Assembly: GCA_027483445.1 (NCBI GenBank)
Contig: JAIXUS010000013.1
Span: forward strand, 53,936-117,935
DNA length: 64,000 nucleotides
Source of the DNA: Bacteroidota bacterium
GTDB lineage: Bacteria; Bacteroidota; Bacteroidia; M30B66
Direction of reading: 5' to 3'
Position numbers and translations under genes: made by a program. The notes under the pieces are model-generated. The model saw only the letters and a list, made by a program, of their open reading frames with translations. It was not told the DNA's origin and ran no database searches. Positions 226 to 17,107 of the stretch are shown here, one piece after another (the stretch's first letter is position 1; the number at the start of each line of letters is the position of its first letter).

Positions 226-2298
226 ATGATGTTTAAATGCTCAAGAATACTTAAGATTTCGGTTTTTTGTTTGCTGTGTGCGTGGAGTTCGCTAAGCAGC
301 CTTGGTCAAAGCACCTTGAATTTGCCCACAGGCTTTGTGAAATTCAGCGCCGATGAGGTCATCAATAAACAACCCGGATTAACCAGCGGCATAAGCTCAT
401 TTTATGGAGCGCCGGGTGGTTTTATATCTGAAGATGAACTGATTGAAAAAGAACGCCAAATAAAAGCAAACAACGAACGTGTTGCCGATAGTTTGAATGC
501 CATCAAAAAACAAATCCTCGCACTGTCGCAAAAGCGCAGCGAGTTTACTTTGTTGAGAGATGTAAATAAACTCGATGAGCTCATCGCCGCCAAGAAGAGT
601 CAATTGGCAGCTGCTCGCAGCGACTTTCAGGCGGCTTTATTGAAAACCAGTTTGCAGGGAGTTTACGTGAGTGTTTTAAAATTTCCTTCAGGTCTTATCA
701 AAGAAAACGAGTTTCAAGGCCAGATACGCAGTAAGGTAGCCACGGTTGCCATCACCGACATCAATGGAATATACGTCAGCAGCATTACTGAGGTTCAAAA
801 TCAACAACTGATCAAAGACTGGATATCTACCACAAAAAGCGGAAAATACAAGGAAGTTGCCCCGGTTTATTTTAAGGATATTCAAGAAGGATATTATATC
901 GTGGTAAGTAAAGCCGAGGTGAGTCCTTTGCTAAGGGAAGACGGTGACAATAAAAATACTTCTACAGGCAATGGAGTTTTATACCCCATCAAAGTCTATA
1001 ATCCGGAAAATCAAACAGATTACCTGAATACCTTGAAAAACGAATATAACTTAGATACTGCCGATTTATCGGGCATTAAAAATAAAGTGGAAGAATATCT
1101 TAAGGCGGTCATAAAAAACAATAACACTGTGCAGACAGATTTAGCTGGCATCGAGCAAAAGCAAAATGCAGTCCTGAAAATTGCGGAGGCAGAGCTTGAA
1201 GAAGCGATGCAGAAAAAAAAGCAACGCATCAACACAGTTGAAAAGGCATTGTTGGAGTTTGGTGTAACCAACAAAGGGGATATTTTATTAAATATTGATG
1301 CCCTAACATCCGCAATGACTGCACGAATAAAAAGCCATGGAAGTAGACTTGTGTATTGGAAAGAACAGGAAGTAACTACAGTGGGTCCTCAGTTGGTAAG
1401 TGGGCAGGGCGATTACGATGTGGTAATTAGAGATGCAGCCATATTGTACGCCCAAAACCAGATAGAGGGAGCAAAGGTTGAGGAGGATTTTTATGAGGTT
1501 CGGGAAGTTGATCTTGGTAAGCTGGTTGGGCAAATCACCACACGCCAGATAAAAGCGATCCGCCAACCCAGGGAAGTTTTTCTCTATGCAAGCGCCAAGA
1601 GAATTGGCTACAAATTGCTGGTGGCGGTTCGTTATAAGGTAAAGGAAGGGGAGGTCCCAGTAAATTCTATATCACCGCCAAACCTAAAGAAAAGTGAGTG
1701 CCCCAGTGTAATTAAAGACATTGATGGCAACACGTATAAAACAGTGCAAATCGGCAACCAATGCTGGATGGCAGAGAATCTAAAAACAGAACATTATAAC
1801 GATGGCTCATTGATACCTAATATTATGGAGGATGAGAAGTGGAGAAATTTAGAAAGTGGGGCATGGTGCCACAAGGATAACGATGCTTCCTATGATAAAA
1901 ACTATGGTAAATTATACAATTATTATACAGTAAGTGATCCTCGAAAGCTTTGCCCTGCAGGGTGGCATGTGCCGAATGTTAATGAATGGGCAGAACTAAC
2001 AAATTATCTTGGAGGAGAAAAGTTCGATGGTATTAAGATGAAAAGCACTTTTGGTTGGAAAGATAATGGTAACGGAACCAATAATTCAGGATTCAATGGA
2101 CTTCCGGGCGGTATACGTTACTTAGGCATTTTCAAAGGCGGCTTTTCCAGCACTGGAGAACAAAGCTCATGGTGGTGCGATACAGAAACCGTTGATAAAC
2201 TTGTCTGGTCTCGTAACCTGTACTTTCTATCTGGAACTGCAGGCTGGAGTGATATCGCTAAGGAAAATGGTCTTTCAGTCCGTTGCCTTAGGGATTAA
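226..2298 (+). CDS. Secreted coiled-coil protein with C-terminal FISUMP domain (paralogue 1)
   Basis: The protein has 690 residues. An N-terminal hydrophobic signal peptide ends near SSLGQ. A shared N-terminal module follows, with motifs LRDVNKLDELI and LQGVYVSVLKF, coiled-coil stretches near residues 80-140 and 280-350, and a beta-rich part ending in KLLVAVRYKV. From about residue 492 there is a FISUMP domain (Fibrobacter succinogenes major paralogous domain, TIGR02145-like), recognised by DIDGNTYKTVQIGNQCWMAE and the terminal LSVRCLRD. FISUMP domains are C-type-lectin-like and found on secreted or surface proteins. The N-terminal module recurs in the next four genes and is closest to that of the fifth. 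ATG at 226 and 229 are both possible starts. No enzymatic function can be claimed; ligand binding is inferred. Confidence 0.8.
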   Translation: MMFKCSRILKISVFCLLCAWSSLSSLGQSTLNLPTGFVKFSADEVINKQPGLTSGISSFYGAPGGFISEDELIEKERQIKANNERVADSLNAIKKQILALSQKRSEFTLLRDVNKLDELIAAKKSQLAAARSDFQAALLKTSLQGVYVSVLKFPSGLIKENEFQGQIRSKVATVAITDINGIYVSSITEVQNQQLIKDWISTTKSGKYKEVAPVYFKDIQEGYYIVVSKAEVSPLLREDGDNKNTSTGNGVLYPIKVYNPENQTDYLNTLKNEYNLDTADLSGIKNKVEEYLKAVIKNNNTVQTDLAGIEQKQNAVLKIAEAELEEAMQKKKQRINTVEKALLEFGVTNKGDILLNIDALTSAMTARIKSHGSRLVYWKEQEVTTVGPQLVSGQGDYDVVIRDAAILYAQNQIEGAKVEEDFYEVREVDLGKLVGQITTRQIKAIRQPREVFLYASAKRIGYKLLVAVRYKVKEGEVPVNSISPPNLKKSECPSVIKDIDGNTYKTVQIGNQCWMAENLKTEHYNDGSLIPNIMEDEKWRNLESGAWCHKDNDASYDKNYGKLYNYYTVSDPRKLCPAGWHVPNVNEWAELTNYLGGEKFDGIKMKSTFGWKDNGNGTNNSGFNGLPGGIRYLGIFKGGFSSTGEQSSWWCDTETVDKLVWSRNLYFLSGTAGWSDIAKENGLSVRCLRD

Positions 2299-2382
2299 GG
2301 TTTAGTTAATTTGATTTATTTGGTTATTCAAATAGCCACCACCGCGAGGCCATGCGAAATGGTAATAAGAACAAAACAAGTC

Positions 2383-4788
2383 ATGAATTTTTCTCTCTTC
2401 AAACTCCTCTTTCTAAGCCTACTTGCCAATTGTTTTCTGGTTTTTTTGCAACCAATTCAGGCCCAAAAACCTTGCCTGCCGAACAGCCCTCTGGTGATAG
2501 AGGCAGGACAAATGGAGGTAAGTACCCTTGCTGCCGAAATACGGTCGAAAAAAGCTCGTTTTACCGCAGTTGACATTGCCGGATTAAACCTTTCGGTTGC
2601 TACCTGCAATAGCGAGGTTGAAAAACGCATCTCCACCCTGCGCAATGGCTTGTTGCGCTACTCCACCCAACGGCAGGATTTATATGGCCTACGCGATGCA
2701 GAAGGCATCCGTAAGCAAATTGAAGAAAAAAAGAAGGCTCAGGAAGATATCCGTTCTCAAATGCTTCTCGACCTACAGGGCATTCAAATTCAAGGCTTGT
2801 ACATCGTGTATGCCGATAACGTAGATGCCTTTAGCGATAGCAAAGAATCGCTTATGAAACAAAGCGATGCCTGGATGGCTCCCAAGGTAATCGAAGAACA
2901 AAATGGTATTTTCCTGGAAAGTGCAACCATTGTAAAAGATGCACAGTTGGTGTATGATTATATCCGTACACAGGTTTCAGGCGAACTTACGGTAGCGCCG
3001 CAAAAAACATCCATCAACCCCGAAGCGGCGCATTTTGTGAACCTCACCCTCACTACAGTATCGGCATTGCGAAGGATGCCCGACATGCAAACTTCACAAA
3101 ACAAATCCACAGCGCGAAATTATCGGCTAATCAATGTGCTGCAAAGCAGCGATTTTGCTTCACAATTGCGCAGCTGGGGAGTGAGCGAAACGGTTATTGC
3201 CGATATGAACAAGCTGGTAGAACTCAAGAAAGAAAGCATCCTACAACAGAATCAATTGCAGTTAGAGCGTCAGCAACGCATCATGCGCGAAGGCCAAATG
3301 CGCATTCAACAAGCCGAAGCCGAAATAACCCAATTGGAAACCAGCCTCAAAGAGCGCGATGCAAGGGTGCTGACCTTCCTCAAAAAAAATCCCGATGTAA
3401 CGGTAGAATCCACAGGCAATACCGATGAGCAGATCAAAAAAATACTCGGCTTGCTCGACAGCCGTATTCAAAATACGATGCAAGAAATTAACCGCGAAAA
3501 GGAGCAGGAGTTAATTGCCAAAATGCAGGTAAAAGTACCCTTTGAGGGCAATGCGGCCGAAGACATAGCCCGCAAAGCCATGGATGTTTACGAACAACTC
3601 AAAAGCGCCTACGGAAAGGTGGAGAATTATTATGAGCAGGTGGAAGTCGAAAATGGCATCCTGAAAGGACAAGAGCAGCGCAAAAGCCGCGATTTATACC
3701 GCACTCCCGATAAGATTTGGCTCTATCCGGTGCCGCTTCCCGACGATGAATACACCTTGTCGATGGTTATATCATTTAATATTATTGAAAAGAAGGAAGA
3801 ACCTAAGCCGGTTCAAAATACGAGTACGCAGCAAAGTGCCAATGCAAACACGCTAATAGCCTCCAATGGCTTACAAATAGACCCGAGCTGGCCCGCTCCA
3901 ATACAGGACTTGGTGAGGGATATGGTGAAGATACCGGCAGGGAAGTTTAAAATAGGCAGTAGAGTAGATGAAATTGGGAGAGATACAGATGAAGGACCAC
4001 TCACTGAAATTACCCTAAACAGTTTTTACATGGGTAAATATGAAGTAACATTATCTCAGTTTATTGAGTTTGTTAGTGCAACTGGTTATAAAACAGATGC
4101 AGAAAAAAAAGAAAGTAAAGTTAATTACTTATTCGATGTCAATGGCAATAGAAGGTCCAAAGTAGAATATAACCATCCAGTATCGTATGTAAGTTGGCAT
4201 GATGCAGAGGCCTTTACCCGATGGGTAAGTGAATTCACGGGCATTTCACTTAAACTACCGAGCGAATCACAATGGGAGTATGCCTGCAGAGCGGGAAGCA
4301 CAACACCGTTTAATACTGGCGATTGCCTGAGCAGCAACGAGGCTAATTACGATGGGAATTATCCTTACCAACAATGTGCAAAAGGTAATTACAAGCAATC
4401 AAACACGCCGGTAGGCAGTTATAAGGCCAACGCCTGGGGTTTATACGATATGCATGGCAATTTAAGCGAATGGTGTCTGGACGTTTATCACTATTCTTAT
4501 AGTGGTATACCGCTAAATGGTAATCCTTGGGTAGGAGCTGAAGAATCGACACATATTAAAAGAGGAGGCAATTCGAATTATTATGCTGAAAACTGTCGTT
4601 CAGCATACCGTGGCAACTTTATTCATATCAGCAAACACCTAAACGATGATTCCAATAACGGCTTTCGACTTGTGCACAGCACCCCAAATACGATACCCAA
4701 CGCCCCTATTAAACCTGTTGAGAAGCCCCAAGCACCATCCAATTCCGGAAAAAGCAAAGGCAAACTCAAACAACCCCGATACTTCTAG
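2383..4788 (+). CDS. Secreted coiled-coil protein with FGE-sulfatase-like domain (paralogue 2)
   Basis: I chose ATG 2383 because it directly begins a good signal peptide (hydrophobic core, cleavage near IQAQ). The ORF track's 2311 start is TTG and adds 24 unlikely residues. The protein then has 801 residues. The shared module carries LRDAEGIRKQIEEKKK, IQIQGLYIVY and a long coiled coil (about 285-345), ending at DKIWLYPVPL. From about residue 514 an FGE-sulfatase-type domain begins at MVKIPAGKF and includes YEVTLSQF, LPSESQWEYACRAG and WGLYDMHGN. The end (RGG..., NGFRLV) resembles the variable tail of paralogues 3 and 4 but is AT-rich. It is followed by a Pro/Lys-rich extension, so it is not an active GC-rich variable region. 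Sulfatase activation is unlikely; this fold commonly serves in ligand binding. Confidence 0.8.
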   Translation: MNFSLFKLLFLSLLANCFLVFLQPIQAQKPCLPNSPLVIEAGQMEVSTLAAEIRSKKARFTAVDIAGLNLSVATCNSEVEKRISTLRNGLLRYSTQRQDLYGLRDAEGIRKQIEEKKKAQEDIRSQMLLDLQGIQIQGLYIVYADNVDAFSDSKESLMKQSDAWMAPKVIEEQNGIFLESATIVKDAQLVYDYIRTQVSGELTVAPQKTSINPEAAHFVNLTLTTVSALRRMPDMQTSQNKSTARNYRLINVLQSSDFASQLRSWGVSETVIADMNKLVELKKESILQQNQLQLERQQRIMREGQMRIQQAEAEITQLETSLKERDARVLTFLKKNPDVTVESTGNTDEQIKKILGLLDSRIQNTMQEINREKEQELIAKMQVKVPFEGNAAEDIARKAMDVYEQLKSAYGKVENYYEQVEVENGILKGQEQRKSRDLYRTPDKIWLYPVPLPDDEYTLSMVISFNIIEKKEEPKPVQNTSTQQSANANTLIASNGLQIDPSWPAPIQDLVRDMVKIPAGKFKIGSRVDEIGRDTDEGPLTEITLNSFYMGKYEVTLSQFIEFVSATGYKTDAEKKESKVNYLFDVNGNRRSKVEYNHPVSYVSWHDAEAFTRWVSEFTGISLKLPSESQWEYACRAGSTTPFNTGDCLSSNEANYDGNYPYQQCAKGNYKQSNTPVGSYKANAWGLYDMHGNLSEWCLDVYHYSYSGIPLNGNPWVGAEESTHIKRGGNSNYYAENCRSAYRGNFIHISKHLNDDSNNGFRLVHSTPNTIPNAPIKPVEKPQAPSNSGKSKGKLKQPRYF

Positions 4789-4806
4789 TTTAATTTAAGC
4801 AACGCT

Positions 4807-4814
4807 TATTTTTG
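4807..4814 (+). promoter_or_regulatory. Bacteroidota-type -7 promoter box (TAnnTTTG)
   Basis: TATTTTTG lies 31 bases before the GTG start of paralogue 3, in the 57-bp gap after paralogue 2. It suggests that paralogue 3 has its own promoter. Confidence 0.45.
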
Positions 4815-4845
4815 TAACCAGAAAAATCATCAAATCCCCTGTATT

Positions 4846-7272
4846 GTGAATGTAACTTGTAGAGTTTATTCTTTTTTGCTACTTTTCTTCATGCTGATTG
4901 GGCTTGCTTTTCCCATCGTAGCCGATGCCCAGCAAAATTGCAGCATTACAAATCCCATGGTGTTGGATGCCACCCAGGTAAACGCTGCGAGCATTGCATC
5001 TGCCATCAAGCAGCACAACCGAAGGTTTACCAAGGCCGAAATTGATCAATTAAAACTACAATTGACTCAATGCAATAGTAACATGAACAGTAATATCTCG
5101 GAGTTAAAGAGCAAACTGGTTGATGTTTCTGAGTTGCACAAAAGCTTCCTGCCTTTTCGCGATGTGGAAGGTGTTAAAAAACAAATAGAAGAAAAAAGAA
5201 AAGCACTCATTGAAACTGAAAAAGCCATTTTCCGCGATCTGGAAAACATCACCCTCCAAAGCCTTTATATTGTTTATATGGATCGGGTTGACATCCTAAA
5301 TGGCCAAGTAGAAGATTGGACCAGGGAACTTAACGAATACATGAGTCCACAGGTTATTGGCGATATCAATGGGGTCTTTATTGAAAGTACCACCATTGTG
5401 AAAGATGCTGCTTTATTGCAAGACCACATTAAAAAGCAGGTTAGCGGCGAACTCACTGCCTCTTCAATGAACACAGTGGTTGATGCCGAAAAGGAGTTTT
5501 TTGTCAATTTCTCGCGTGTAATAGTATCTCCTTTGAAAAAAGAAAAAAACACACTGGATCAACGCCAAGCAAGCAATTCGAATCGAACTTATAAAATCAT
5601 TAATCCATTGAATGAAAGTAGTTGGCAATTGAGTTTAAGAAACCTTCAGATACCCGAAAATAAAATAAACGACTTCGCAAATCAGGTAGAAGCGTTTCAA
5701 AAGGAGATTACCCTCGAAAACGAACGGCAGCTGAAACTTCAGCGTAATTTACTTGAAAAGGGCAAACAACAGATCAAGTTGTTAGAGCAGGAAATACGCT
5801 CCTTGGAGGATGGGCTGCGAAGCCGCGATGTCAGGGTGGATGATTTTATGAGACAATATCCCAATCTCAATTATCACAAAGGAAATACCGACGCCAACGT
5901 GCGGTTAATCCTGAGCCATTTAGATAAGGAGCGCAGCGCAACTTTAGAAGCAATTCGCAAGGAGAAAGAGAAGGAGTATGTAATGAAATCCGACATTCTC
6001 GTTCAAATTCAAGGCGATACACGCGAAGCATTAGCCCAGCAAGCTATGTTTGTGCTCAGTCAAATTCGAAAAAACGAAACCGTAATACAGGATTTCTACG
6101 AAAAAAATGAAATACAGGATGGCAAGCTCACTGAACAGGAAAGACTTGAGGCTCGCCGGCTTTACCGCGATCCGGATAAAATTTGGATTTTCCCTTCTCC
6201 CGGGCAAGGCGATCAGTATAAACTCGCGCTTGTAGTTACCTTTAAAGTACGTAGCGGGCCCTCGACCGGTCAATCCGTTACCGTTCAGCCAAATCTATCG
6301 AGCAGCAACAACACTCCCCAAACCACAGGCACATCCGCACAAACTTCACCTGGTGCAGGAAGTAAGCCACCAGTTGAGGCTCCAATAAGTGACAATAGGC
6401 AAGTATTGCCTAATGGCTTAACCCTCGACCCCACCTGGCCTACGCCTATTCAGGAGCTGGTGCGCAATATGGTTAAAATACCAGCAGGTAAGTTTGTAAT
6501 GGGCAGCCCAACCACCGAAAGCAAAAGAGAATCTAACGAAGGTCCACAGCAGGAGATAAGTCTTGCAGGCTTTTACATGAATAAGTATGAGGTTACTGTG
6601 GCTCAGTTTAGGGCGTTTGTAGAGAAAATAAATTATCAAACCGACGCAGAAAAAATCGGTAGCTCCTATTTTTGGAAAGAAAAAGAGGGTAAGTGGCAAT
6701 GGGTTGAAGAAAAAGGCATCAACTGGCGCCATGATGCTCAGGGTAATTTTCAGGTGAATAAAGACGACCCAGTAATTCATGTCAGCTGGAACGATGCGCA
6801 GGCGTTCATTCAGTGGCTGAATAAATTAACCAACTACTCATTCCAATTGCCGAGCGAGGCGCAATGGGAATATGTCTGCCGCGCAGGTACCACAACACCC
6901 TTCAACACTGGCGATTGCTTAAGCACCACCGACGCCAATTACGATGGCAACTATCCATACGAGGGTTGTTCAAAGGGCACTTATCTGCAAAGCACGAACA
7001 AAGTAGGTTCATATAAAGCCAATGCCTGGGGCTTGTACGATATGCATGGTAATGTAAGGGAATGGTGTCAGGACTGGTATCATGATTCGTACACGGGCAT
7101 CCCGACCGATGGTAAGGCTTGGGAAAGCCCTACCGGGAGCAACCGCGTGCTGCGCGGCGGCGGCTGGTTCAACTTCGCGCAGTACTGCCGCTCAGCCAAC
7201 CGCGGCTACAACGCGCCCGACTACCGTTCTTACGGCGCCGGCTTTCGCCTCCTTAGTTCAGGAACACCATAA
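4846..7272 (+). CDS. Secreted coiled-coil/FGE-sulfatase-like protein with DGR-type variable tail (paralogue 3)
   Basis: The protein has 808 residues with a GTG start, chosen because it gives a complete signal peptide ending at VADAQ; the next ATG would cut into it. The shared module (FRDVEGVKKQIEEK, LQSLYIVYMDRV, coiled coil about 280-345, DPDKIWIFP) is followed by a Thr/Ser/Pro-rich linker. The FGE-sulfatase-type domain spans about 541-808 (MVKIPAGKFVMGS, YEVTVAQF, LPSEAQWEY, WGLYDMHGN). The last 50 residues, from about 759 to 798, are a GC-rich variable segment with Phe, Tyr, Asn and Ser at NNC codons, and the gene ends FRLLSSGTP. This matches target proteins of diversity-generating retroelements, where a C-type-lectin fold displays mutated residues. 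It shares a nearly identical 237-bp stretch with paralogue 4, though the N-termini have diverged. Its role as a variable receptor or adhesin is inferred. Confidence 0.82.
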   Translation: MNVTCRVYSFLLLFFMLIGLAFPIVADAQQNCSITNPMVLDATQVNAASIASAIKQHNRRFTKAEIDQLKLQLTQCNSNMNSNISELKSKLVDVSELHKSFLPFRDVEGVKKQIEEKRKALIETEKAIFRDLENITLQSLYIVYMDRVDILNGQVEDWTRELNEYMSPQVIGDINGVFIESTTIVKDAALLQDHIKKQVSGELTASSMNTVVDAEKEFFVNFSRVIVSPLKKEKNTLDQRQASNSNRTYKIINPLNESSWQLSLRNLQIPENKINDFANQVEAFQKEITLENERQLKLQRNLLEKGKQQIKLLEQEIRSLEDGLRSRDVRVDDFMRQYPNLNYHKGNTDANVRLILSHLDKERSATLEAIRKEKEKEYVMKSDILVQIQGDTREALAQQAMFVLSQIRKNETVIQDFYEKNEIQDGKLTEQERLEARRLYRDPDKIWIFPSPGQGDQYKLALVVTFKVRSGPSTGQSVTVQPNLSSSNNTPQTTGTSAQTSPGAGSKPPVEAPISDNRQVLPNGLTLDPTWPTPIQELVRNMVKIPAGKFVMGSPTTESKRESNEGPQQEISLAGFYMNKYEVTVAQFRAFVEKINYQTDAEKIGSSYFWKEKEGKWQWVEEKGINWRHDAQGNFQVNKDDPVIHVSWNDAQAFIQWLNKLTNYSFQLPSEAQWEYVCRAGTTTPFNTGDCLSTTDANYDGNYPYEGCSKGTYLQSTNKVGSYKANAWGLYDMHGNVREWCQDWYHDSYTGIPTDGKAWESPTGSNRVLRGGGWFNFAQYCRSANRGYNAPDYRSYGAGFRLLSSGTP
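7120..7239 (+). repeat. Putative DGR variable region (VR) of paralogue 3
   Basis: This is the GC-rich 3' segment of the gene, homologous to 9642-9761. By hand alignment 26 of 120 bases differ between the copies: 23 fall at codon positions 1 or 2 and only 3 at position 3. In 17 of the 26, one copy carries A. Most differing codons are NNC, as expected from AAC codons in a template repeat mutated at adenines. The flanks are nearly identical. The template itself is not in the window. Confidence 0.75.
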
Positions 7273-7280
7273 AAAGCCGA

Positions 7281-7371
7281 GCCTCCGGCCAAGGGGCAGC
7301 CGGGCCATAGGCCCAAGGCAAAGCCCCGGGCAAGGAGGCGAGGTAAAAAACCAAACCATCCGGCCGGAGGC
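7281..7371 (+). repeat. GC-rich inverted repeats downstream of the VR
   Basis: Just after the stop codon, gcctccggcc (7281-7290) and ggccggaggc (7362-7371) form a perfect 10-bp inverted repeat. Between them gggccataggccc (7302-7314) is a 5-bp stem with a 3-base loop. Known DGR targets carry a hairpin or cruciform shortly downstream of the VR that helps target recognition. A terminator role is the alternative, though no T tract follows directly. Confidence 0.6.
7315..7348 (+). repeat. Conserved VR 3'-flank element, copy 1
   Basis: The 34-bp sequence beginning aaggcaaagcccc and ending ggaggcgaggtaaaa recurs at 9795-9828 and 13523-13556, each time 1-45 bases after an FGE-domain stop. It is conserved more strongly than the neighbouring intergenic DNA, which suggests a functional site such as an initiation or homing element. 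Confidence 0.65.
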
Positions 7372-7421
7372 CGGCTAAATTTTAAAATTACAAACCCGAA
7401 CCGTTACACTTCATTTTAACC

Positions 7422-9794
7422 ATGCTGTTTCCATTCACCAAAGTCTTTATCCAAAGAAAGCTTCAACTAAGTGCATGTCTGCTTTTGCTCCATTTTAGCT
7501 TGCAAGGGCAAAATAGCTCATGTAAGTTTTTCTTAAGCCCACTGGAGTTTAATGCCGACAGTGTATTGGGGAAAAACAGCGTCGCACATGTCGAAAAGGC
7601 TATTCATGCTGCTGCAGTTAAAAAGTTGCGAATCAACTTTACCGAAGACACCATTCAAGCGTATGTAAAAACCTGGGAAGCCTGTAATCAAGAAATAAGT
7701 GAAAAGCTCTTGCAAATTCAGAAACAACGCGATCTTATTTCACAAGCACAGCAAAAACTTACCGACAATGATAAAATTGGATCGTTGCAAAAAAAGCTTG
7801 TTGAGTTGCAGGATGCGAAGGTTCAGTTAGCAAAACAAACTGGAGAAAATTTGCAGGCAATCAGGTTTCAGGCGATTTATGTTATAGTAATTAAAAATGT
7901 AGATGACCTAACCAGCACCCGTGAGGTAATGGAGGAACAGGTTTCAGCAGCCCTAAGAAATACTGCTATAAAGGATTTGCGAGGAGTATTTGTTCAATCA
8001 AAAACGACGGTTGGCAATCACCAGCTTTTAGATGATTGGATAAGGCTTGAAAGCAGCGGAGAACTGAGGCGCGAAGGACAGAATATATTGGAGGATTTTA
8101 ACTCTATCCAACACTATTACATCAATTGTTCTCAGTTGGTAGTGGCCCCGCTTAAGAGTGATTCATCGCTCCGCAAAGCAACTACGGCCAGTACAATTGG
8201 GCAGGTCTTAACCCCCATAAACGTTTTAGCAACAGCCAATTGGAAAGAGGTTTTGAGAACTCATCAGGTTTCTGAAGAAGATATTCAAGCAATTGAAAGG
8301 GCTATTGCCACCAAACAATCAGGTATAGATAAGAATACGCAACTTAACGCCGATAAAGAGAAGGAAATAATACGTGAATTTGTGGCCAACAATGCCAAAT
8401 TGAATGATCAAATGCTTGCTGCCGAAAATGAACTTAAAAACATCTACCAATTTTTACAAACATTGGTTGGCAACCAGATTCAGGTGAATGCAAACAATGC
8501 CATTCAAATCTTAAAGAGCCAACGGGAGGCCTATAATAACCAAGCAAAAGAGAAAACCACCGAATACGAAGTGCTTGAAGCCAAAAAGTGGGTCTGGCAA
8601 CCGCTTGAGGAGTTGATTTATGATAACAATGCCAATAATGCAATAGCGAATAAAACGGTTGACTTGGTTGCGATAATCGCTGCCAATCTTACTAAAGAAG
8701 AATCGCAAAGTTCTAGTATTGAAGTATTTAATGGACAATTAATCCGTGATGAAAAAAAGGAAGGAAGAAGGAAAGTAAAAAAACTTGTTAAAGTATGGCT
8801 CTATTTAAGTCCAGGGGCTTCAAATAAGCGCAAAATTACCATCTTAAGCAGTTTTGAGTGGGATTTACAGCAAGAAAGCACTACTCCCAAGCCCGTCGTG
8901 CCTAAACCTGTTGCCAATGAGGGGGATAAACTAAACAACGAAAAAAAAGAGGAACCATCAATTAAGCCGAATGAACGAATCAATAAATTGATTGAAGCTA
9001 AACAGTCCTTTCTTATCGATACCCTTTGGCCCAAATCTATTCAAGAACTTGTAAAAAGCATGGTTAGAATACCCGGTGGTGAATTTCTAATTGGCTGTGA
9101 ATCGGGCAATGCTCAGGATTGTGACGCTGATGGAAAAGAGTATGTTAAAATAAAGTTAGCGCCATTTTTCATGAGCAAGTATGAAATTACTCAACAACAG
9201 TGGTATGATTTGGTGAAGAACACTCCGAAAGAGAATAAAGAATTAAATCCTGTTCCCTCATCTAACAGAGAAAAAAAGTTGTGGAACAACCCTGTTACCG
9301 ATGTTTCGTGGGAGGATTGTCAGGAATTCATTGCCCGGCTCAATAAGTTAACCAAGCTGAATTTCCAATTGCCCAGTGAGGCGCAATGGGAGTATGCGTG
9401 CCGTGCAGGTACCACAACACCCTTCAACACGGGCGCATGCTTAAGCACTACCGACGCCAATTACGATGGCAACTATCCATACGAGGGTTGTTCAAAGGGC
9501 ACTTATCTGCAAGGCACGAACAAAGTAGGTTCATATAAAGCCAATGCCTGGGGCTTGTACGATATGCATGGTAACGTTTGGGAATGGTGTCAGGACTGGT
9601 ATCATGATTCGTACACGGGCATCCCGACCGATGGTAAGGCTAGGGAAAGCCCAACCGGGAGCATCCGCGTGCTGCGCGGCGGCAGCTGGAACGACGGCGC
9701 GCAGGGCTGCCGCTCAGCCGACCGCGGCAGCATCACGCCCGATGCCCGTCACTTCAGCTTCGGCTTTCGCCTCCTCAGTTCAGGAACACCATAA
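7422..9794 (+). CDS. Secreted coiled-coil/FGE-sulfatase-like protein with DGR-type variable tail (paralogue 4)
   Basis: The protein has 790 residues. The signal peptide ends near FSLQGQ and is followed by Cys, as in paralogues 2 and 3. Its version of the shared module is the most diverged (FQAIYVIVIKNV, coiled coil about 285-385, VKVWLYLSPG). A Lys/Glu-rich linker leads to the FGE-sulfatase-type domain at about 547-790 (MVRIPGGEFLIGC, YEITQQQW, LPSEAQWEYACRAG, WGLYDMHGN). Residues 741-780 form the variable segment, here rich in Ser, Asp, Gly, His and Phe, in contrast to the Tyr/Phe/Asn set of paralogue 3. The end FRLLSSGTP is identical. The sharp GC rise at the 3' end and the near-identity to paralogue 3 over the second half of the domain point to sequence transfer between the genes or from a common template. 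Confidence 0.82.
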   Translation: MLFPFTKVFIQRKLQLSACLLLLHFSLQGQNSSCKFFLSPLEFNADSVLGKNSVAHVEKAIHAAAVKKLRINFTEDTIQAYVKTWEACNQEISEKLLQIQKQRDLISQAQQKLTDNDKIGSLQKKLVELQDAKVQLAKQTGENLQAIRFQAIYVIVIKNVDDLTSTREVMEEQVSAALRNTAIKDLRGVFVQSKTTVGNHQLLDDWIRLESSGELRREGQNILEDFNSIQHYYINCSQLVVAPLKSDSSLRKATTASTIGQVLTPINVLATANWKEVLRTHQVSEEDIQAIERAIATKQSGIDKNTQLNADKEKEIIREFVANNAKLNDQMLAAENELKNIYQFLQTLVGNQIQVNANNAIQILKSQREAYNNQAKEKTTEYEVLEAKKWVWQPLEELIYDNNANNAIANKTVDLVAIIAANLTKEESQSSSIEVFNGQLIRDEKKEGRRKVKKLVKVWLYLSPGASNKRKITILSSFEWDLQQESTTPKPVVPKPVANEGDKLNNEKKEEPSIKPNERINKLIEAKQSFLIDTLWPKSIQELVKSMVRIPGGEFLIGCESGNAQDCDADGKEYVKIKLAPFFMSKYEITQQQWYDLVKNTPKENKELNPVPSSNREKKLWNNPVTDVSWEDCQEFIARLNKLTKLNFQLPSEAQWEYACRAGTTTPFNTGACLSTTDANYDGNYPYEGCSKGTYLQGTNKVGSYKANAWGLYDMHGNVWEWCQDWYHDSYTGIPTDGKARESPTGSIRVLRGGSWNDGAQGCRSADRGSITPDARHFSFGFRLLSSGTP
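9642..9761 (+). repeat. Putative DGR variable region (VR) of paralogue 4
   Basis: This is the homologue of 7120-7239. The differing codons include agg/tgg, aac/ttc, gac/aac, ggc/ttc, agc/tac, atc/aac, acg/gcg, gcc/tac and ttc/gcc. All are compatible with adenines in a shared template. Exceptions are a synonymous gat/gac and the third base of cac/tct. Confidence 0.75.
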
Positions 9795-9828
9795 AAGGCA
9801 AAGCCCCTGGCAAGGAGGCGAGGTAAAA
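9795..9828 (+). repeat. Conserved VR 3'-flank element, copy 2
   Basis: This is the same 34-bp element as at 7315-7348 with a single visible substitution in the gcccc(t/g)ggc part. It begins directly at the stop codon of paralogue 4, so about 40 bases present after paralogue 3 are missing here. Confidence 0.65.
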
Positions 9829-9854
9829 TCCAAGTATAGCCTAAGACAAAAAAC

Positions 9855-12851
9855 ATGAAAAAAACAAAGCGTATCGAAAAGCATTTACTTGATGAATTAA
9901 AGCAAGGTTTAATCGTCTTGCTGTTGATTTTGAACCCTTCTCATTACATGGCCCAAAGTAATTTGGCATTGCCCCCTGGTTATATCTCCTTTGAGGCGGG
10001 AAAAGTATTGGCTAAAAGTCAAGAAGTGGTCTCAAAAATTCAGTCTTCTGTAGAAAAGAATGACCTCACCTTTTTAACAGAAGCAAGACTTCGGGAATTA
10101 GAACGCCAATTAGAGGCCAGAAACAAAGTGGTTTATGATTCTGTAATTTCTAAAAAAAATCTATTGTTGGAGCTTTCCCAGAAACGCAGTGAATTCATAT
10201 TGCTTCAAGATGTGAGTAAAATTGATGAAATCATTAGAATACGAGAGGAAAACCTCAAAAATGCTCAAGCACAGTTTTTTCAAGCTTTATCCAATCAAAG
10301 TTTGCAAGGGGTGTATATTGGTATCAGACGTTTCTCTCCAGGGGTGTTTAGGCAAGCGGAATTTGAAAGCGACATTCGAAGCCAAATTTCGCCTTTAGCT
10401 GTAAAAGATATCGTTGGGGTGTATGTCAACAGTATTACTGAAGTTCACAACAAAAAGCTCATAAACGAAAAGATAAGTACAGAAAGTATGGGTAATTACG
10501 AACAGAATGCCCCATATTCAATTAAGAACAATGCAGCAGGCTATTACATCGAGGTAAGTAAGGCTATCGTAAGTCCATTGAAGAGTATTGTGAGCGGCAC
10601 CATAGATAGAAGTGCGAACCAAAGCAGTAACCAAGTGATGGTGTTTAACGCGCAAAATGCCGATTATGAGGCTTATTTAAAGAGCTTTCAACTGTCTGAA
10701 GCAGAAATGACTGAAATTACCACTAAGGTAAATGACTACTTAAACGATGTGGCTTCGCATAACAATAAGGTTAAAATTGATTTAGCGCAAATCGAAGCGC
10801 GGCAAAATAGCATCATTGCAAATGCGGAAAAAGAGTTGGAAGAGGCAAGGAAAGTTAAAGCCGAACGAACAACTCGTGTGAGAAAGGCATTGAGAGAATT
10901 CCGCTTAGCTGAGCAGCCCAATAATACTATGGCTGAAATAAGCAGCATAGTTTCGTTTTTGGCTGATAAAGAGAAAGTCCTCCAAAATGAAATTGTAATG
11001 TGGAAGGAAAAGGAGCTTACTAAATTCCTCACCCCGGAGATTAGTGTTCAGGGAGATTATGATCAGATTTTAGGTGATGGGATTATCACCTTTTCAAACA
11101 ATCAAATCGCAGGAGCGAAAGTAATTGAGAGCCTTTATGAATATAATGAAGTTGTAAAAGGTAAACTAACTGATTCGTTCGTAAAGATAAAAATTAATGC
11201 CTCTCGCACACCAGTAGAGGTTTATGCTTATTTTGCTAACACGGCTAATGGGTATAAGGTGTTGGTGGCAGTAAGATACAAGATATTGCCTGAGAACGGA
11301 TCAGAGAAAGATGATTTTGGAGATAGTGGACAAGCGAAAGATAACGAGTTGGAACCTCAAGAGGAAAATTTCGATGATTTAAGTTTATCCCATGCGGGTA
11401 GTGATAACATCTTCACACCAAGTGTTAATTGGCCTCAATCTATACAAGAACTTGTAAAAAGCATGATTTTTGTCAAAGGTGGTTATGTAAAATACGGATG
11501 TTTTTCAGGTAATGAATTTGAATGTAACTCAAAAGGTCTAAATTATTTCGATTTATATTTGACTGATTATCATTTAGGGCAATATGAAGTAACTCAGCAG
11601 CAGTGGTTTGATATAATGGGAACTACCCCTAGTTTAAAGAAAAATTGTCCAAACTGCCCTGTAACAAATATAAGTGAAAAGGAGATTTTTGATTTTATTC
11701 AAAAGTTAAATAAATTAACTGGTTGCGAGTTCAGATTGCCTAATTTTTTTGAATGGGAGTATGTATTGACTGAAAAATATACTTCCTTCCCGCCAATCAA
11801 AAAGTTCGAAAGGATTTATTTTATGGATGGATACAAATTGCAGCTAACAGAAAAGGAAAAATTAGATTTAGAATACTTATGGATGCGCGGCGGATTTAAA
11901 AACAGTATAATGGAATGGCCAAATAAACAGACTTTTATTGAACCTGTTAATTCACATGCTCCTAATAGATTGGGATTTTATAATATGTTCGGTAATGCTG
12001 CTGAATTTGTTGCAGCAAGTAAAGGTTTGAAAAACCACTTTGGTCGTTATGGCTACCTCGATATTGAAGAGAGAATGAAGTCTGGCCAAAATTATGATAA
12101 AAAGTATATACTCAATGTAATGATGGATAAAGAAAACCATGTGACCAACAGAAAGCAAAAGAACTTATTGCCCTTATTTTTTGGATTGGGTATGTATTGG
12201 CAAGAAACAAGAGGCAATATTGCTGGTTTCAATTATTATCCTAATGGTAATGGTACAGGATTTCGCCTAGTCCACTCAAATAAACTTTCAAATGGCGAAT
12301 TAATTTCTTTCAAAGAAGAAATTTCCGAAATAGATTATAATCGGATTATTGATCAATATTGTACTGTTAATAAATCTAAGTTTATCTTATTTATTGACTC
12401 AATAGAAAGACGAATCGAGCAAATTTCTATTGATCGTCAATTGAGTGAAGAAAGATTGGCAGAGGAAAAAAGAAGAAAAGAGGAGTTCGAAAAAATCTAT
12501 AAATGTATAATTTATAATTCTAATTTAACATATAATTATAATAATTATGAAAAAAAATTAGAAGTATATTTTACCTTTGATGTGCCTGATATTGTTAGCG
12601 AAATTAACTTTACAATGAGAATAAATTATTTAGACATAACTCTTTCTTCTGGCGAAGTTCAAAGATACAATATGTCTAATTTGTCAAATACAACTCAAGT
12701 GTTGAATGCAAGAAATTCAAAGGCTCGAATATCTTTTCCCTTAACAATTTCTGCATCTGAATCCTACTCCATTAGTTATATAAATTATAGCTTTTGGGCA
12801 TACGATCAGACAGATAGAAAAAACAATAGTATACCAGTTCTAGTTGAATAA
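9855..12851 (+). CDS. Large secreted coiled-coil protein with divergent FGE-like domain and C-terminal extension (paralogue 5)
   Basis: The protein has 998 residues. A hydrophobic signal sequence starts about residue 15, after a Lys/Arg-rich n-region, and ends near HYMAQ. The shared module is closest to paralogue 1 (LPPGYISFEAG, LLQDVSKIDEII, LQGVYIGIRRF, YKVLVAVRYKI). Residues about 537-812 are a strongly diverged FGE-sulfatase-like domain: SIQELVKSM, YEVTQQQWFD, LGFYNMFGNAAEF and GTGFRLVHS remain. From about 813 a new AT-rich tail follows, with a short charged coiled coil (EERLAEEKRRKEE) and a beta-rich end that I do not recognise. There is no GC-rich variable tail. The low GC of the last 1.3 kb differs from the upstream half and suggests a fusion or acquired segment. 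Confidence 0.75.
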   Translation: MKKTKRIEKHLLDELKQGLIVLLLILNPSHYMAQSNLALPPGYISFEAGKVLAKSQEVVSKIQSSVEKNDLTFLTEARLRELERQLEARNKVVYDSVISKKNLLLELSQKRSEFILLQDVSKIDEIIRIREENLKNAQAQFFQALSNQSLQGVYIGIRRFSPGVFRQAEFESDIRSQISPLAVKDIVGVYVNSITEVHNKKLINEKISTESMGNYEQNAPYSIKNNAAGYYIEVSKAIVSPLKSIVSGTIDRSANQSSNQVMVFNAQNADYEAYLKSFQLSEAEMTEITTKVNDYLNDVASHNNKVKIDLAQIEARQNSIIANAEKELEEARKVKAERTTRVRKALREFRLAEQPNNTMAEISSIVSFLADKEKVLQNEIVMWKEKELTKFLTPEISVQGDYDQILGDGIITFSNNQIAGAKVIESLYEYNEVVKGKLTDSFVKIKINASRTPVEVYAYFANTANGYKVLVAVRYKILPENGSEKDDFGDSGQAKDNELEPQEENFDDLSLSHAGSDNIFTPSVNWPQSIQELVKSMIFVKGGYVKYGCFSGNEFECNSKGLNYFDLYLTDYHLGQYEVTQQQWFDIMGTTPSLKKNCPNCPVTNISEKEIFDFIQKLNKLTGCEFRLPNFFEWEYVLTEKYTSFPPIKKFERIYFMDGYKLQLTEKEKLDLEYLWMRGGFKNSIMEWPNKQTFIEPVNSHAPNRLGFYNMFGNAAEFVAASKGLKNHFGRYGYLDIEERMKSGQNYDKKYILNVMMDKENHVTNRKQKNLLPLFFGLGMYWQETRGNIAGFNYYPNGNGTGFRLVHSNKLSNGELISFKEEISEIDYNRIIDQYCTVNKSKFILFIDSIERRIEQISIDRQLSEERLAEEKRRKEEFEKIYKCIIYNSNLTYNYNNYEKKLEVYFTFDVPDIVSEINFTMRINYLDITLSSGEVQRYNMSNLSNTTQVLNARNSKARISFPLTISASESYSISYINYSFWAYDQTDRKNNSIPVLVE

Positions 12852-13030
12852 TTTAATAATGAAAAAGTCTTTTTTGCATTTATTATTAGATCATAAATGC
12901 TTTGTGAGTCAATTAATTTATTAAAAATATAAATTTAATTTTTATAAAATAATTCGGCATGGAATTTTTAGGCTAAAGACATCAATGAAGTGCTTTCTTA
13001 CATTCGATTAAATTTCAATTGCTCCTGATC

Positions 13031-13484
13031 GTTAATTGGAGTGATGCAAAAGCCTTTGTACTTTGGATAAGTAATTACACCCACATTGATTTCGGATAAC
13101 CCAATAAACAACAATGGGAGTATGCCTGCCGTGTAGGTTCAACAACTCCTTTTCACACCGGTAATTGTCTTCATTCTGATGAAGAGAACTATGACGGAGA
13201 TATTCTACGTTATAATTGCTTGGCCGGGGAAATTACATGGTAATACGACCGAAGTAGGAAGTTACAAATCCAATAATTTTGGACTGCATGACATGCATGG
13301 GAATATCTCAGAATGGTGCATTGATTTTCCAAATACATACAATGACAAAACAGTCCCAACTCAGGGTGGCTATTGGCGCAGTTCCGCTTAGACATGTCGT
13401 TCAGATTATTCCGAACGAACTAATCCTGACCTTAGTATCAATGTAATTGGCTTTCGCATCTTCAGTTCAGGCACATTTCGCTAA
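13031..13484 (+). pseudogene. Decayed FGE-sulfatase-like gene with VR-like tail
   Basis: Translation in pieces gives the C-terminal half of the FGE domain: VNWSDAKAFVLWISNY, a stop, [18 protein letters not shown], a frame change, then [22 protein letters not shown] and GGYWRSSA followed by a stop. After that, CRSDYSERTNPD and GFRIFSSGTF can still be read. The pattern follows paralogues 3 and 4 to the end, including a variable-like tail. It has no N-terminal module, so only a 450-bp remnant is left. It ends 38 bases before the third copy of the 3'-flank element. Confidence 0.8.
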
Positions 13485-13522
13485 TCTGCCTCTCAGGTCA
13501 AAGGGCTATCGGGCGTTAGTTC

Positions 13523-13556
13523 AAGGCAAAGCCCATGGCAAGGAGGCGAGGTAAAA
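13523..13556 (+). repeat. Conserved VR 3'-flank element, copy 3
   Basis: This is the 34-bp element behind the pseudogene. The preceding 35 bases also align with the flank of paralogue 3. Retention of the flank beside a broken gene shows that the flank belongs to the duplicated unit. The following bases (gcgcggcggcaggctggga) weakly resemble the start of the VR. Confidence 0.6.
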
Positions 13557-13842
13557 ACATGACCGCGCGGCGGCAGGCTGGGAAGTCATAGGTAGATATC
13601 CCTATAGTATTCCTTGCGAAATCAGCGAAACAACTTGTGAAACAGCTTTCTCCAATGGGTAACAAGTAGGCAATAAACAAAGGGCTGACAGCAGTTTTGC
13701 GAAAACCGCCAAATGTTTTTTTGTTTATGAATCAAGCGCAATAAATAAAACTGCTTTGCGTTTTGGGTGTATAGTTAAATATTTTAGTCTTCTTATCTTA
13801 CTTATCCCACATATCCATTATTTTAGTGCAAATACTGTATTT

Positions 13843-15351
13843 ATGTTTATCAAAGAAAAAAAAGCTGTAAATCAGCCGTTTAATTCCCTAAATCCTCGTC
13901 CAGTCACTGGTTTTTTCACGAAAGCATCTTCAATGTTAGGTGTGTTGCTTTTCCTGTTTGGAGGGGGATTCAGTCATGCTCTAAAGGCACAGAAAGCCGA
14001 TGTAGCCAAAGTAGCTGCCGAAATTCTGGTCAGTCTAGATCAGGCTCAGGCTATGCGCGAATTGGTGAGCCTCAAACAAACTATGGAATCGCGGGTAACT
14101 GAAGCCAAGAAAAATCAGCTCGCCAATCTCGATCCGGCGCAACTTCAAAATTTCAGCAACCAATACAATGCTGTGGCACTCAGCTTTAACGAACTGCTTC
14201 AAGCCCTCAAACAGGATGTTTTGAGTTTTGGTCGGAAACCTGATTTAAATGCATTGTCGAAAAAGTATCAAACGAAAATTGACAACTTACGCACATCGGT
14301 TGATACATTCACTCAAATCAATCTGAATGGCATAGCCAAAGACATGCTTGGCAACCCTCCAATCGATTGGGGCCAAATAATAGGCATTGTCATTAGTGCG
14401 GTTCCATCCATTATTCAATCTATACAGAAGAATAAGAAACTAAACCAAGGCGATTTAGTTGGTGCAATAAATGCCCTTACTCCAGATTTCTTGCAGAAAT
14501 ACAAAATGTTGGGTTTCGAGGCAATCTGGCCTGAGGCCGAAGCATTTCTACGAAAACAATCATCAGGTAACTCAACTACTGAGAGGGTAGCTCCAAGTTT
14601 GCTGCCTTCTGTTGGCAACGCCAAGGTGAATGTATTGGTGTCTGAACCCTATGTCTTAGAACCACTCAAAGGAGATTTTCGCTTTACCGATCGCCTACCT
14701 GATGGCTCTGAAGTTGAAATTCCTATGACGATTCAGCAGGAAACGAAATCACAAACGATTCTTACCTCTGCCCCGGTAGTTATTGGAGATACTTATCGCC
14801 TGCAGCTTAGTTCAAAACAACCGTTTGTATATGTATTTAGCCGCCAAATGGCTACGGGTAATTATACTCTACATTTCCCCAAAATGGCTTCCGTTAATCC
14901 GGTAAGTCCAGCTGTAGCTCCAGGGAATCCCAAACCGAGCATAAGTGATTCAATGAACATGCGTACTAAACGTCAAATGCTAGAACTGACAAAAGACATT
15001 GATTCCAAAGATAAAAATGCGGTAATCATCAAGGATATCATCGAGAGATCGAAAGCAGATTATTATGTGTACCAATCAGCGCCAGCCGACAACCCAATCA
15101 CATTCACCTGGAGTGTTGACGATAAACCGGGTGATGAACAAATGATTATTCTTTTTTCGAATTCTGAAATCTTTTTCCCTGTGGAGTTTTTGCGTAGATA
15201 CTTGCAATTGCCTTCGGGAAATACCTCCGGGAAAGTGCTTCCAAGCCTTGCTTTTGGCCAGGATTTCGTAGCCAATGAAGGCAGCAAAAACCAGGATACC
15301 TTGGATAAACTCCTCAAGGCCTATATCATTTCAATTCCTAAAACCCGATAA
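13843..15351 (+). CDS. Secreted DUF4384-like protein, caspase neighbour
   Basis: I chose ATG 13843 (502 residues). The track start at 13756 is TTG, and ATG 13933 is another option that begins directly at the hydrophobic segment MLGVLLFLFGGGFSHALKAQ, a signal-like region. The N-terminal third is helical. Around residues 255-450 the pattern GDTYRLQLSS...FVYVFSRQ...YTLHFPK with a later EQMIILFSNSE resembles DUF4384, a domain often encoded with or fused to caspase-family proteases. The next gene, 19 bp downstream, is such a protease, so the two probably form one unit. The DUF4384 assignment is by pattern only. A direct catalytic role is not visible. Confidence 0.65.
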   Translation: MFIKEKKAVNQPFNSLNPRPVTGFFTKASSMLGVLLFLFGGGFSHALKAQKADVAKVAAEILVSLDQAQAMRELVSLKQTMESRVTEAKKNQLANLDPAQLQNFSNQYNAVALSFNELLQALKQDVLSFGRKPDLNALSKKYQTKIDNLRTSVDTFTQINLNGIAKDMLGNPPIDWGQIIGIVISAVPSIIQSIQKNKKLNQGDLVGAINALTPDFLQKYKMLGFEAIWPEAEAFLRKQSSGNSTTERVAPSLLPSVGNAKVNVLVSEPYVLEPLKGDFRFTDRLPDGSEVEIPMTIQQETKSQTILTSAPVVIGDTYRLQLSSKQPFVYVFSRQMATGNYTLHFPKMASVNPVSPAVAPGNPKPSISDSMNMRTKRQMLELTKDIDSKDKNAVIIKDIIERSKADYYVYQSAPADNPITFTWSVDDKPGDEQMIILFSNSEIFFPVEFLRRYLQLPSGNTSGKVLPSLAFGQDFVANEGSKNQDTLDKLLKAYIISIPKTR

Positions 15352-15370
15352 TCACTTAACATCAAATTGT

Positions 15371-17107
15371 ATGAAGCGTTTCATTGTTAGTTTTTTCATT
15401 GTTTTTTTTAGCACCAGTGTGTTTGGCCAATTGGTTAAAGACATCACAATGGATCTCGAAGGTAAACCTTTTGAAGTAATCCGCACCAATGATCCCTTTC
15501 CATCAACCTTGTTTAACGAACGACGGTTAGCACTGGTTGTGGGTATAAGTAATTACCAATACATTACCAACTTGCCGAATTGTGGCAATGATGCTGATGC
15601 CATGACCACGAAAATGAACGAGATGGGGTACGATGTGATTCGTGATAAAAGCAACCCGACAAAAGCACAATTGCAAAATATATTCAGAAATGCATTAAAC
15701 TACTTCGTTCAGGGCAGATACAATTCATTTTTGTTTTACTACTCGGGGCACGGTACAGAGCTTGGCAGCATGAATGTAATTGTTCCGTCCGATTTCAAAT
15801 TCGACCGTTCCTGGTCGAGTGCCCAGCGCATCGAGGCTATCACCAACCAGGGTCTCCGGTTGGGTGAACTCATGCAACCCTTTATTAACCAAGCCGGTAA
15901 TAAATATTCCATTGCCATTTTAGATGCTTGTCGGAATATCAAGTATGAAACAGAGGGGAATCCCATTGCCGACTTGGATGCTGGAATTTTTAACAATAAA
16001 CCGGTAACACGCATTTTTTCGACCGCTTTGGGTGATGTGGCATACAATGAGCATCCCGAAGATACACGCATAAGCTATTTTACGTACTACTTGCTACGCG
16101 CTTTCAACAAGCAGGCAAAATCTCCTTGTGATATTCCCTCTTTAAAGAAGCAACTTTCCGAAATGATGAGAAAGCAGGATAAACAGATTCCCCATATTAC
16201 TGAGTCATCAAATATCAATTATGCTTTTCAGTTTTTTGATTGTAGCGGTAAAAATGATTTTGTGCAGTCTTTAGGTACAAATGGAATCCTCAATGTAAGT
16301 CGCGCTAAATTGGTCGCTGATGGAGAAGGATTTGTTAATCAAAAACACGTGGAAGAAGATAAAGGAGACAAAACTCGAGCACTTAGTCTTGCTAAAACAG
16401 CTGCGGAGGTTGTGGCCCTGCGAAATTTAGTTCTAGCTGCCGAAAGTTATGTTTCAAGTATTACTAAAGTAGTTGATGGGAAAACAGAACGAGTAATTGA
16501 TACGCGAATAATTGAAGCAAGAATAAGGCAAGCACAGAGAGTTGGAGATTATAAAGTAGAAGGTAATTCGGTTAAAGTCACCATGGAGGTAGACGAGGCA
16601 AATGTTATCAGTCTGCTGAAGGAAACTGACTCGGGCTTTAACAGTAAAATATACAACCGTTTTAACGAGAACTTTGATTTAGGTGCAACAGAGCAAGCCA
16701 GAATGATTGTGGATTCCATTATCCCTGTTCGGGAGCTTAAACCCAAAGTAGAGTTTCAAGTAGATGCCAATGACGCTAACCGCTTGTATCGCCCGGGCCA
16801 AAAGCAGAAGATTCATGTAGTGGATGAAGACGGTTCATTATTGTGGACAAATTACACCGACAAAGTCAATGAAAAAGATACCCCCTTGGGTGAGATGCTA
16901 TCTTTAGCAATTGAAGCAGGTAAAGCATCTGAACTTGCCAATTTAAATAAGGTGCAGGTTTTAGAAGATGGTACCTTGGTGATAAACATCAAAGACCTGC
17001 TGGGTGAGCAGCAATATAAAAAGTTGAAAGGAGGAGGCAAACTGCTCAAAGCCTTGCCCTATCTAATTCAGCTTATTGATATTGGAGTAAAGGTGGCCAA
17101 AAGATAA
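15371..17107 (+). CDS. Secreted caspase-like protease (peptidase C14 family)
   Basis: ATG 15371 begins a clear signal peptide (FIVSFFIVFFSTSVFGQ); the track start at 15275 overlaps the upstream gene. The protein has 578 residues. The caspase domain spans about residues 50-300: RLALVVGISNYQ, the catalytic His in FYYSGHG (about His127), and the catalytic Cys in ILDACRN (about Cys187). This matches bacterial metacaspase-like or orthocaspase-like enzymes, which typically cleave after basic residues. A second region, about 370-460 (ALSLAKTAAEVVALRNLV, IEARIRQAQRV), resembles LPP20-type lipoprotein domains and is of unknown use here. Export to the periplasm or outside is predicted. Its neighbours are the DUF4384-like gene and the variable lectin-fold array. 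Caspase domains fused to FGE-type DGR targets are known in other bacteria; here the parts are separate genes. Confidence 0.85.
   Translation: MKRFIVSFFIVFFSTSVFGQLVKDITMDLEGKPFEVIRTNDPFPSTLFNERRLALVVGISNYQYITNLPNCGNDADAMTTKMNEMGYDVIRDKSNPTKAQLQNIFRNALNYFVQGRYNSFLFYYSGHGTELGSMNVIVPSDFKFDRSWSSAQRIEAITNQGLRLGELMQPFINQAGNKYSIAILDACRNIKYETEGNPIADLDAGIFNNKPVTRIFSTALGDVAYNEHPEDTRISYFTYYLLRAFNKQAKSPCDIPSLKKQLSEMMRKQDKQIPHITESSNINYAFQFFDCSGKNDFVQSLGTNGILNVSRAKLVADGEGFVNQKHVEEDKGDKTRALSLAKTAAEVVALRNLVLAAESYVSSITKVVDGKTERVIDTRIIEARIRQAQRVGDYKVEGNSVKVTMEVDEANVISLLKETDSGFNSKIYNRFNENFDLGATEQARMIVDSIIPVRELKPKVEFQVDANDANRLYRPGQKQKIHVVDEDGSLLWTNYTDKVNEKDTPLGEMLSLAIEAGKASELANLNKVQVLEDGTLVINIKDLLGEQQYKKLKGGGKLLKALPYLIQLIDIGVKVAKR

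Follow-up and report, generated by a model that had tools for sequence, protein, structure and literature searches.

The 3' ends of two neighboring genes, g3 and g4, in a 64,000-nucleotide stretch of DNA from a Bacteroidota bacterium (the window, as analyzed here) were very probably written by a diversity-generating retroelement (DGR), a known type of element that rewrites binding sites through mutation at the adenines of a template, and we lean toward the reading that they are orphaned variable regions (VRs) whose reverse transcriptase (RT) and template repeat (TR) have been lost. Because the enzyme and the template are missing from the draft genome despite the DGR mark on the tails, the two genes are probably leftover DGR targets. 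Both belong to a run of five tandem paralogs (g1-g5, 226-12851) that end in a FISUMP domain in g1 and in a formylglycine-generating enzyme (FGE) domain in g2-g5. The features of the locus are as follows.

226-2298, + strand: g1, paralog with an N-terminal domain related to those of g3 (23%) and g5 (41%) and a C-terminal FISUMP domain, not FGE
2311-4788, + strand: g2, paralog with an FGE domain
4846-7272, + strand: g3, 808 aa, with an FGE-sulfatase (C-type-lectin) domain at the C-terminus (Pfam PF03781, E 7e-63)
6841-7296, + strand: 3' block common to g3 and g4, g3 copy, about 95% identity upstream of the VR
7120-7248, + strand: VR1, end of g3, with its differences within 7120-7239 and conserved GGCTTTCGC at 7240-7248
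7240-7272, + strand: near-invariant 3' segment of the VR
7422-9794, + strand: g4, 790 aa, architecture as in g3 (Pfam PF03781, E 4e-52)
9363-9818, + strand: 3' block common to g3 and g4, g4 copy
9642-9770, + strand: VR2, end of g4
9855-12851, + strand: g5, paralog with a divergent FGE domain
12977-13485, + strand: broken FGE relic with internal stops
15275-17107, + strand: gene for a caspase-like C14 peptidase, part of this gene run

The locus and the shared 3' ends of g3 and g4

The N-terminal domains of g1, g3, g4, and g5 are linked pairwise, and that of g2 was connected to them by a genome search (36%). This domain had no Pfam match in g3 or in the other paralogs, was matched in its own genome only within the g1-g5 cluster, and was encoded by no viral contig in a close-relative search. 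An apparent signal peptide was recognized by eye at the N-terminus of g3. Past the paralogs, the gene run (226-17107) continues with an unassigned gene and the caspase-like C14 gene. Judged from the sequence, this arrangement would suit a family of secreted receptors whose lectin-like ends can be exchanged. Each of g3, g4, and the relic is followed by a copy of a 36-bp GC-rich repeat (7314-7349, 9794-9829, and 13522-13557). The repeat was considered as part of a DGR element and set aside: it is restricted to these three places, with nothing beyond a 16-bp match elsewhere in the genome, and showed no conserved hairpin by eye.

The N-terminal halves of g3 and g4 share only 25% identity across 234 alignable residues, and the gene bodies above the 3' block are mostly dissimilar. 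The original prediction had described nearly identical flanks on both sides of the variable tails. This description held close to the tails, where 14 of 279 bp upstream (6841-7119; 10 of the 14 at third positions) and 1 of 33 coding bp downstream (7240-7272) differ, but not further out. Because identity ends directly past the stop codon (from 7273) and fades above approximately 6840, the common block is confined to the 3'-terminal 430 bp or so and may represent a recent duplication or conversion tract. The downstream segment occupies the place of the IMH in DGRs and may have had that role.

When the tails at 7120-7239 and 9642-9761 (offset 2522) were compared again, exactly 26 differences were counted, 23 of them at codon positions 1 or 2 (13 at position 1, 10 at position 2, and 3 at position 3) and 17 with A in one copy, each as originally predicted. 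The involvement of A is weak by itself (17/26, p 0.08; 16/23 at positions 1 and 2, p 0.047), and we rejected this count as proof of a DGR at p 0.05-0.08. The predicted predominance of NNC codons was found for the most part, with TGG/AGG, CCT/CCA, GCG/ACG, GAC/GAT, and TCT/CAC as pairs that are not NNC in both copies. The placement of the differences was far from random: the 120-bp tail holds 26 of the 41 differences found in 432 bp (hypergeometric, 5e-7), and their distribution over codon positions differs between VR and flank (Fisher, 1e-4). In seven codons, position 1 and position 2 had both changed, where the third-position rate of the flank would predict 0.36 such codons (p 6e-8), and the third base was unchanged in six of the seven. 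Adenine-specific mutagenesis does not account for the tail differences at 7221 and 7230, which are C/T differences at third positions.

The tails also stand out in composition, with a GC3 of 0.87 versus 0.47-0.51 in the gene bodies. A rise of GC3 at the tail is found in most proven DGR targets as well (genome G010, L079, and L042) and is missing from g2 and from the broken relic, whose tail of ordinary GC carries the same protein motif. GC-rich tails are frequent also in FGE genes without a known DGR (median rise 0.14).

Comparison with foreign templates, paralogs, and the FGE fold

Because no TR of their own was available for g3 and g4, adenine templating was measured against eight FGE-type DGR TRs of other genomes (L031, L039, L042, L070, L079, L146, L223, and L224). 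Undoubted DGRs occur in genomes retrieved as FGE relatives: their RTs carry the IGN..SQ motif and YxDD, and within a 75-bp window the mismatches of their TR/VR pairs number as many as 18 at an A of the template and 0-1 at other sites. All eight TRs aligned without gaps to the g3/g4 tails from GGxW to GFR, over 31 codons. Every one of the 21 core differences at codon positions 1 and 2 coincides with an adenine in one or more of the foreign TRs, compared with 15 of the 41 sites that did not change (Fisher, 3e-7), and 20 of the 21 fall on A in most of the TRs, compared with 10 of 41 (p 5e-8), although the variable codons of the foreign TRs sit where FGE-fold proteins vary anyway. The L146 template reads ACG CCC GAC where the g3/g4 tails have GCG/ACG CCC GAC/GAT. 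Another genome, G085, encodes a DGR-like RT with a TR/VR-like pair (L131; 13 A mismatches and 0 others in 75 bp) that is not of the FGE tail type.

G010, a member of the same class, allows a close comparison. FGE domains are the targets in both cases (L224 and L223 in G010), the TR has the same length and codon plan, and GC3 is 0.84 in the tail and 0.42 in the body. G010 differs in having an intact DGR RT and TR/VR pairs that differ almost only at adenines. Its genome contains three AAC-rich template-like FGE tails (L223 on contig C51, L224 on C60, and L243 at C60:20.6k) and one DGR RT.

As a paralog control, we used 87 same-locus pairs of FGE tails of equal length. Third positions account for 2 of the 23 core differences between g3 and g4 (9%), versus a median of 24% in the control pairs; in proven TR/VR and VR/VR pairs, the share is 0-17%. 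The g3/g4 value is lower than that of most FGE paralogs lacking an RT. Three other FGE tail pairs (L028, L046, and L208), with no RT found in their stretches, are also low in third-position differences and may be further orphan DGR targets.

An AlphaFold2 model of the g3 FGE domain (pLDDT 93) matched PvdO and FGE with Z scores of 30-34 (human FGE, approximately 31), TvpA with 28.8, and TaqVP and Mtd with 13.2 each. In this predicted model, a C-type-lectin-fold domain carries the VR at its 3' end, as in DGR variable proteins, which supports the domain originally proposed as its host. Treponema denticola TvpA (PDB 2y3c) shares the same FGE-type C-type-lectin fold over 220 residues with 32% identity, and a C-terminal variable region is found in both proteins. 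Surface display has been published for TvpA, whereas for g3/g4 it would be a guess, and the RT and TR of the T. denticola DGR are known, whereas both are missing from the present assembly. The human formylglycine-generating enzyme (SUMF1, PDB 1y1e and 2aft) also has the same fold, with approximately 36% identity across the domain. However, the column of its catalytic Cys336 is occupied in g3 by Asn, encoded by a variable codon (Asp in g4), and in the alignment Cys is kept only at Cys341; the catalytic cysteine pair of FGE (human C336 and C341) is therefore incomplete. Because the Cys336 column is a variable Asn/Asp, catalysis by g3 and g4 appears unlikely, and we infer that they use the FGE fold for binding rather than enzymatically.

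The missing template and enzyme, and alternative readings

The genome is available as a draft assembly of 4.26 Mb in 87 contigs with an estimated completeness of 100%. In this assembly, VR1 and a predicted TR as BLAST queries, and a pattern search allowing 3 mismatches, returned just the two VRs, short matches aside. Weak matches elsewhere in the genome (C34, C69, and others) were only 14-28 bp long and chance-like, and were rejected as a TR. In searches of the same assembly for a DGR RT, PF00078 gave no match, an RT protein gave none at E 10, and a profile of seven RTs gave none at E 1; as a positive control, the profile recovered the DGR RT of G010 at 2.5e-160. With this profile, no DGR RT was found in nine other genomes of the order; one weak match (1.9e-6), in G003, covers 71 positions within a long frame. 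An RT in G003, a genome of the same genus, was rejected as a DGR RT by its motifs (LPQGAPTSP and YADD), which are retron-like. No TR was found in the order. Among 395 genomes of the class, AAC-rich tails occurred in G010, G305, G298, and G124, none of them near enough for a donor, and no TR or donor tail was found in the phages, plasmids, and viral contigs searched.

The lack of a linked RT noted in the original prediction thus extends to the whole 87-contig draft assembly. The prediction had proposed searching the genome for a TR and a DGR RT and had named their absence from the complete genome as what would refute it; neither an RT nor a matching TR was found, in an assembly whose draft state cannot prove their loss. 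One part of the original reading, the VR nature of the tails, is well supported by the foreign TRs, the paralog controls, the composition, and the fold; the other part, a working mutagenic retrohoming, is not supported, with neither TR nor RT in the assembly.

A possible but less probable reading is that the DGR is alive, with its RT and TR present in the cell and missing from the draft (in a gap, a plasmid, or a prophage), or with both acting in trans from unsampled strains. The draft is split into 87 contigs, and assemblies break at repeats whose copies are hypervariable. Published cases include trans-diversified targets of Thiohalocapsa as well as loci with an RT and TR in some strains only (PMC10907252), and G010 offers a precedent within the class: because one TR/VR pair lies on C51, a contig without an RT match, and the sole DGR RT lies on C60, this RT may act in trans. 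Against a living DGR, neither of two separate parts was found despite the completeness estimate of 100%, none turned up in the order's nine further genomes, and silent differences between the tails are still present. Retrohoming from a single template wipes out silent differences. In VR/VR pairs next to an intact DGR, there were 0/31 third-position differences even with 11-17 mismatches over 90 bp in the flanks, whereas the g3/g4 tails have 4 third-position differences in 51 codons versus 5.5 expected from the flank. Because silent differences are not depleted, by these small counts, recent rewriting of both tails from one template is unlikely; two different templates could yield the same pattern. 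We consider it rather unlikely that a DGR borne by a mobile element, or present in only part of the population, still diversifies g3 and g4 in trans in the service of a secreted receptor family encoded next to a caspase-like protease.

The DGR origin itself faces a competitor, in which duplicated FGE-domain genes diverged under strong diversifying selection on their binding loops. FGE paralogs do vary at the same protein positions, and the RT-less pairs L028, L046, and L208 are likewise low in third-position share, though they are possibly DGR targets themselves. Selection alone fits poorly with the excess of double-hit codons that keep their third base, with the coincidence of every position-1/2 core difference with TR adenines, and with the composition break at the tail, which makes it improbable. 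Least probable of all is that GC-rich tails were imported or shuffled from other FGE genes by homologous recombination, without reverse transcription in the lineage, for which the GC3 break and the 3' block common to two otherwise dissimilar genes speak, but no donor tail was found elsewhere in the genome or in the phage, plasmid, and viral records searched, and third-position differences would be expected in imported tails as well.

Proposed history and place among known DGR systems

On the preferred reading of orphaned DGR targets, a DGR RT would have copied a GC-rich TR with AAC codons, misincorporating at adenines, and the mutated cDNA would have replaced the tails of g3 and g4 by retrohoming. 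Such replacement would have altered exposed binding-site residues of the FGE-type C-type-lectin domain. The RT and TR would since have been lost from the lineage, leaving g3 and g4 as fixed, orphaned targets, and these putative surface or secreted ligand receptors would bind whatever the last rewriting selected.

A system of orphaned DGR targets is of a known and ordinary kind. DGR loci that are diversified in trans, degenerate, or strain-variable have been published (PMC10907252, PMC7517822). The remote or degenerate targets of Thiohalocapsa PB-PSB1 (PMC10907252) and of cyanobacteria (PMC7517822) likewise lack a local RT and TR. In contrast to the present case, those targets mostly have a matching RT and TR at another place in the genome or in a different strain, and for Thiohalocapsa the variation of the targets has been measured in populations (PMC10907252).

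The g3/g4 locus gives a hint of a receptor family of several genes with a caspase-like gene as its neighbor, which fits the published conflict-system targets (PMC10907252). RT-based surveys miss DGR targets without an RT, and the limitation of DGR surveys for remote targets has been stated (PMC8144416). Targets that have neither RT nor TR would be recognizable by the silence of third positions, by the adenine positions of foreign templates, and by a break in GC3.
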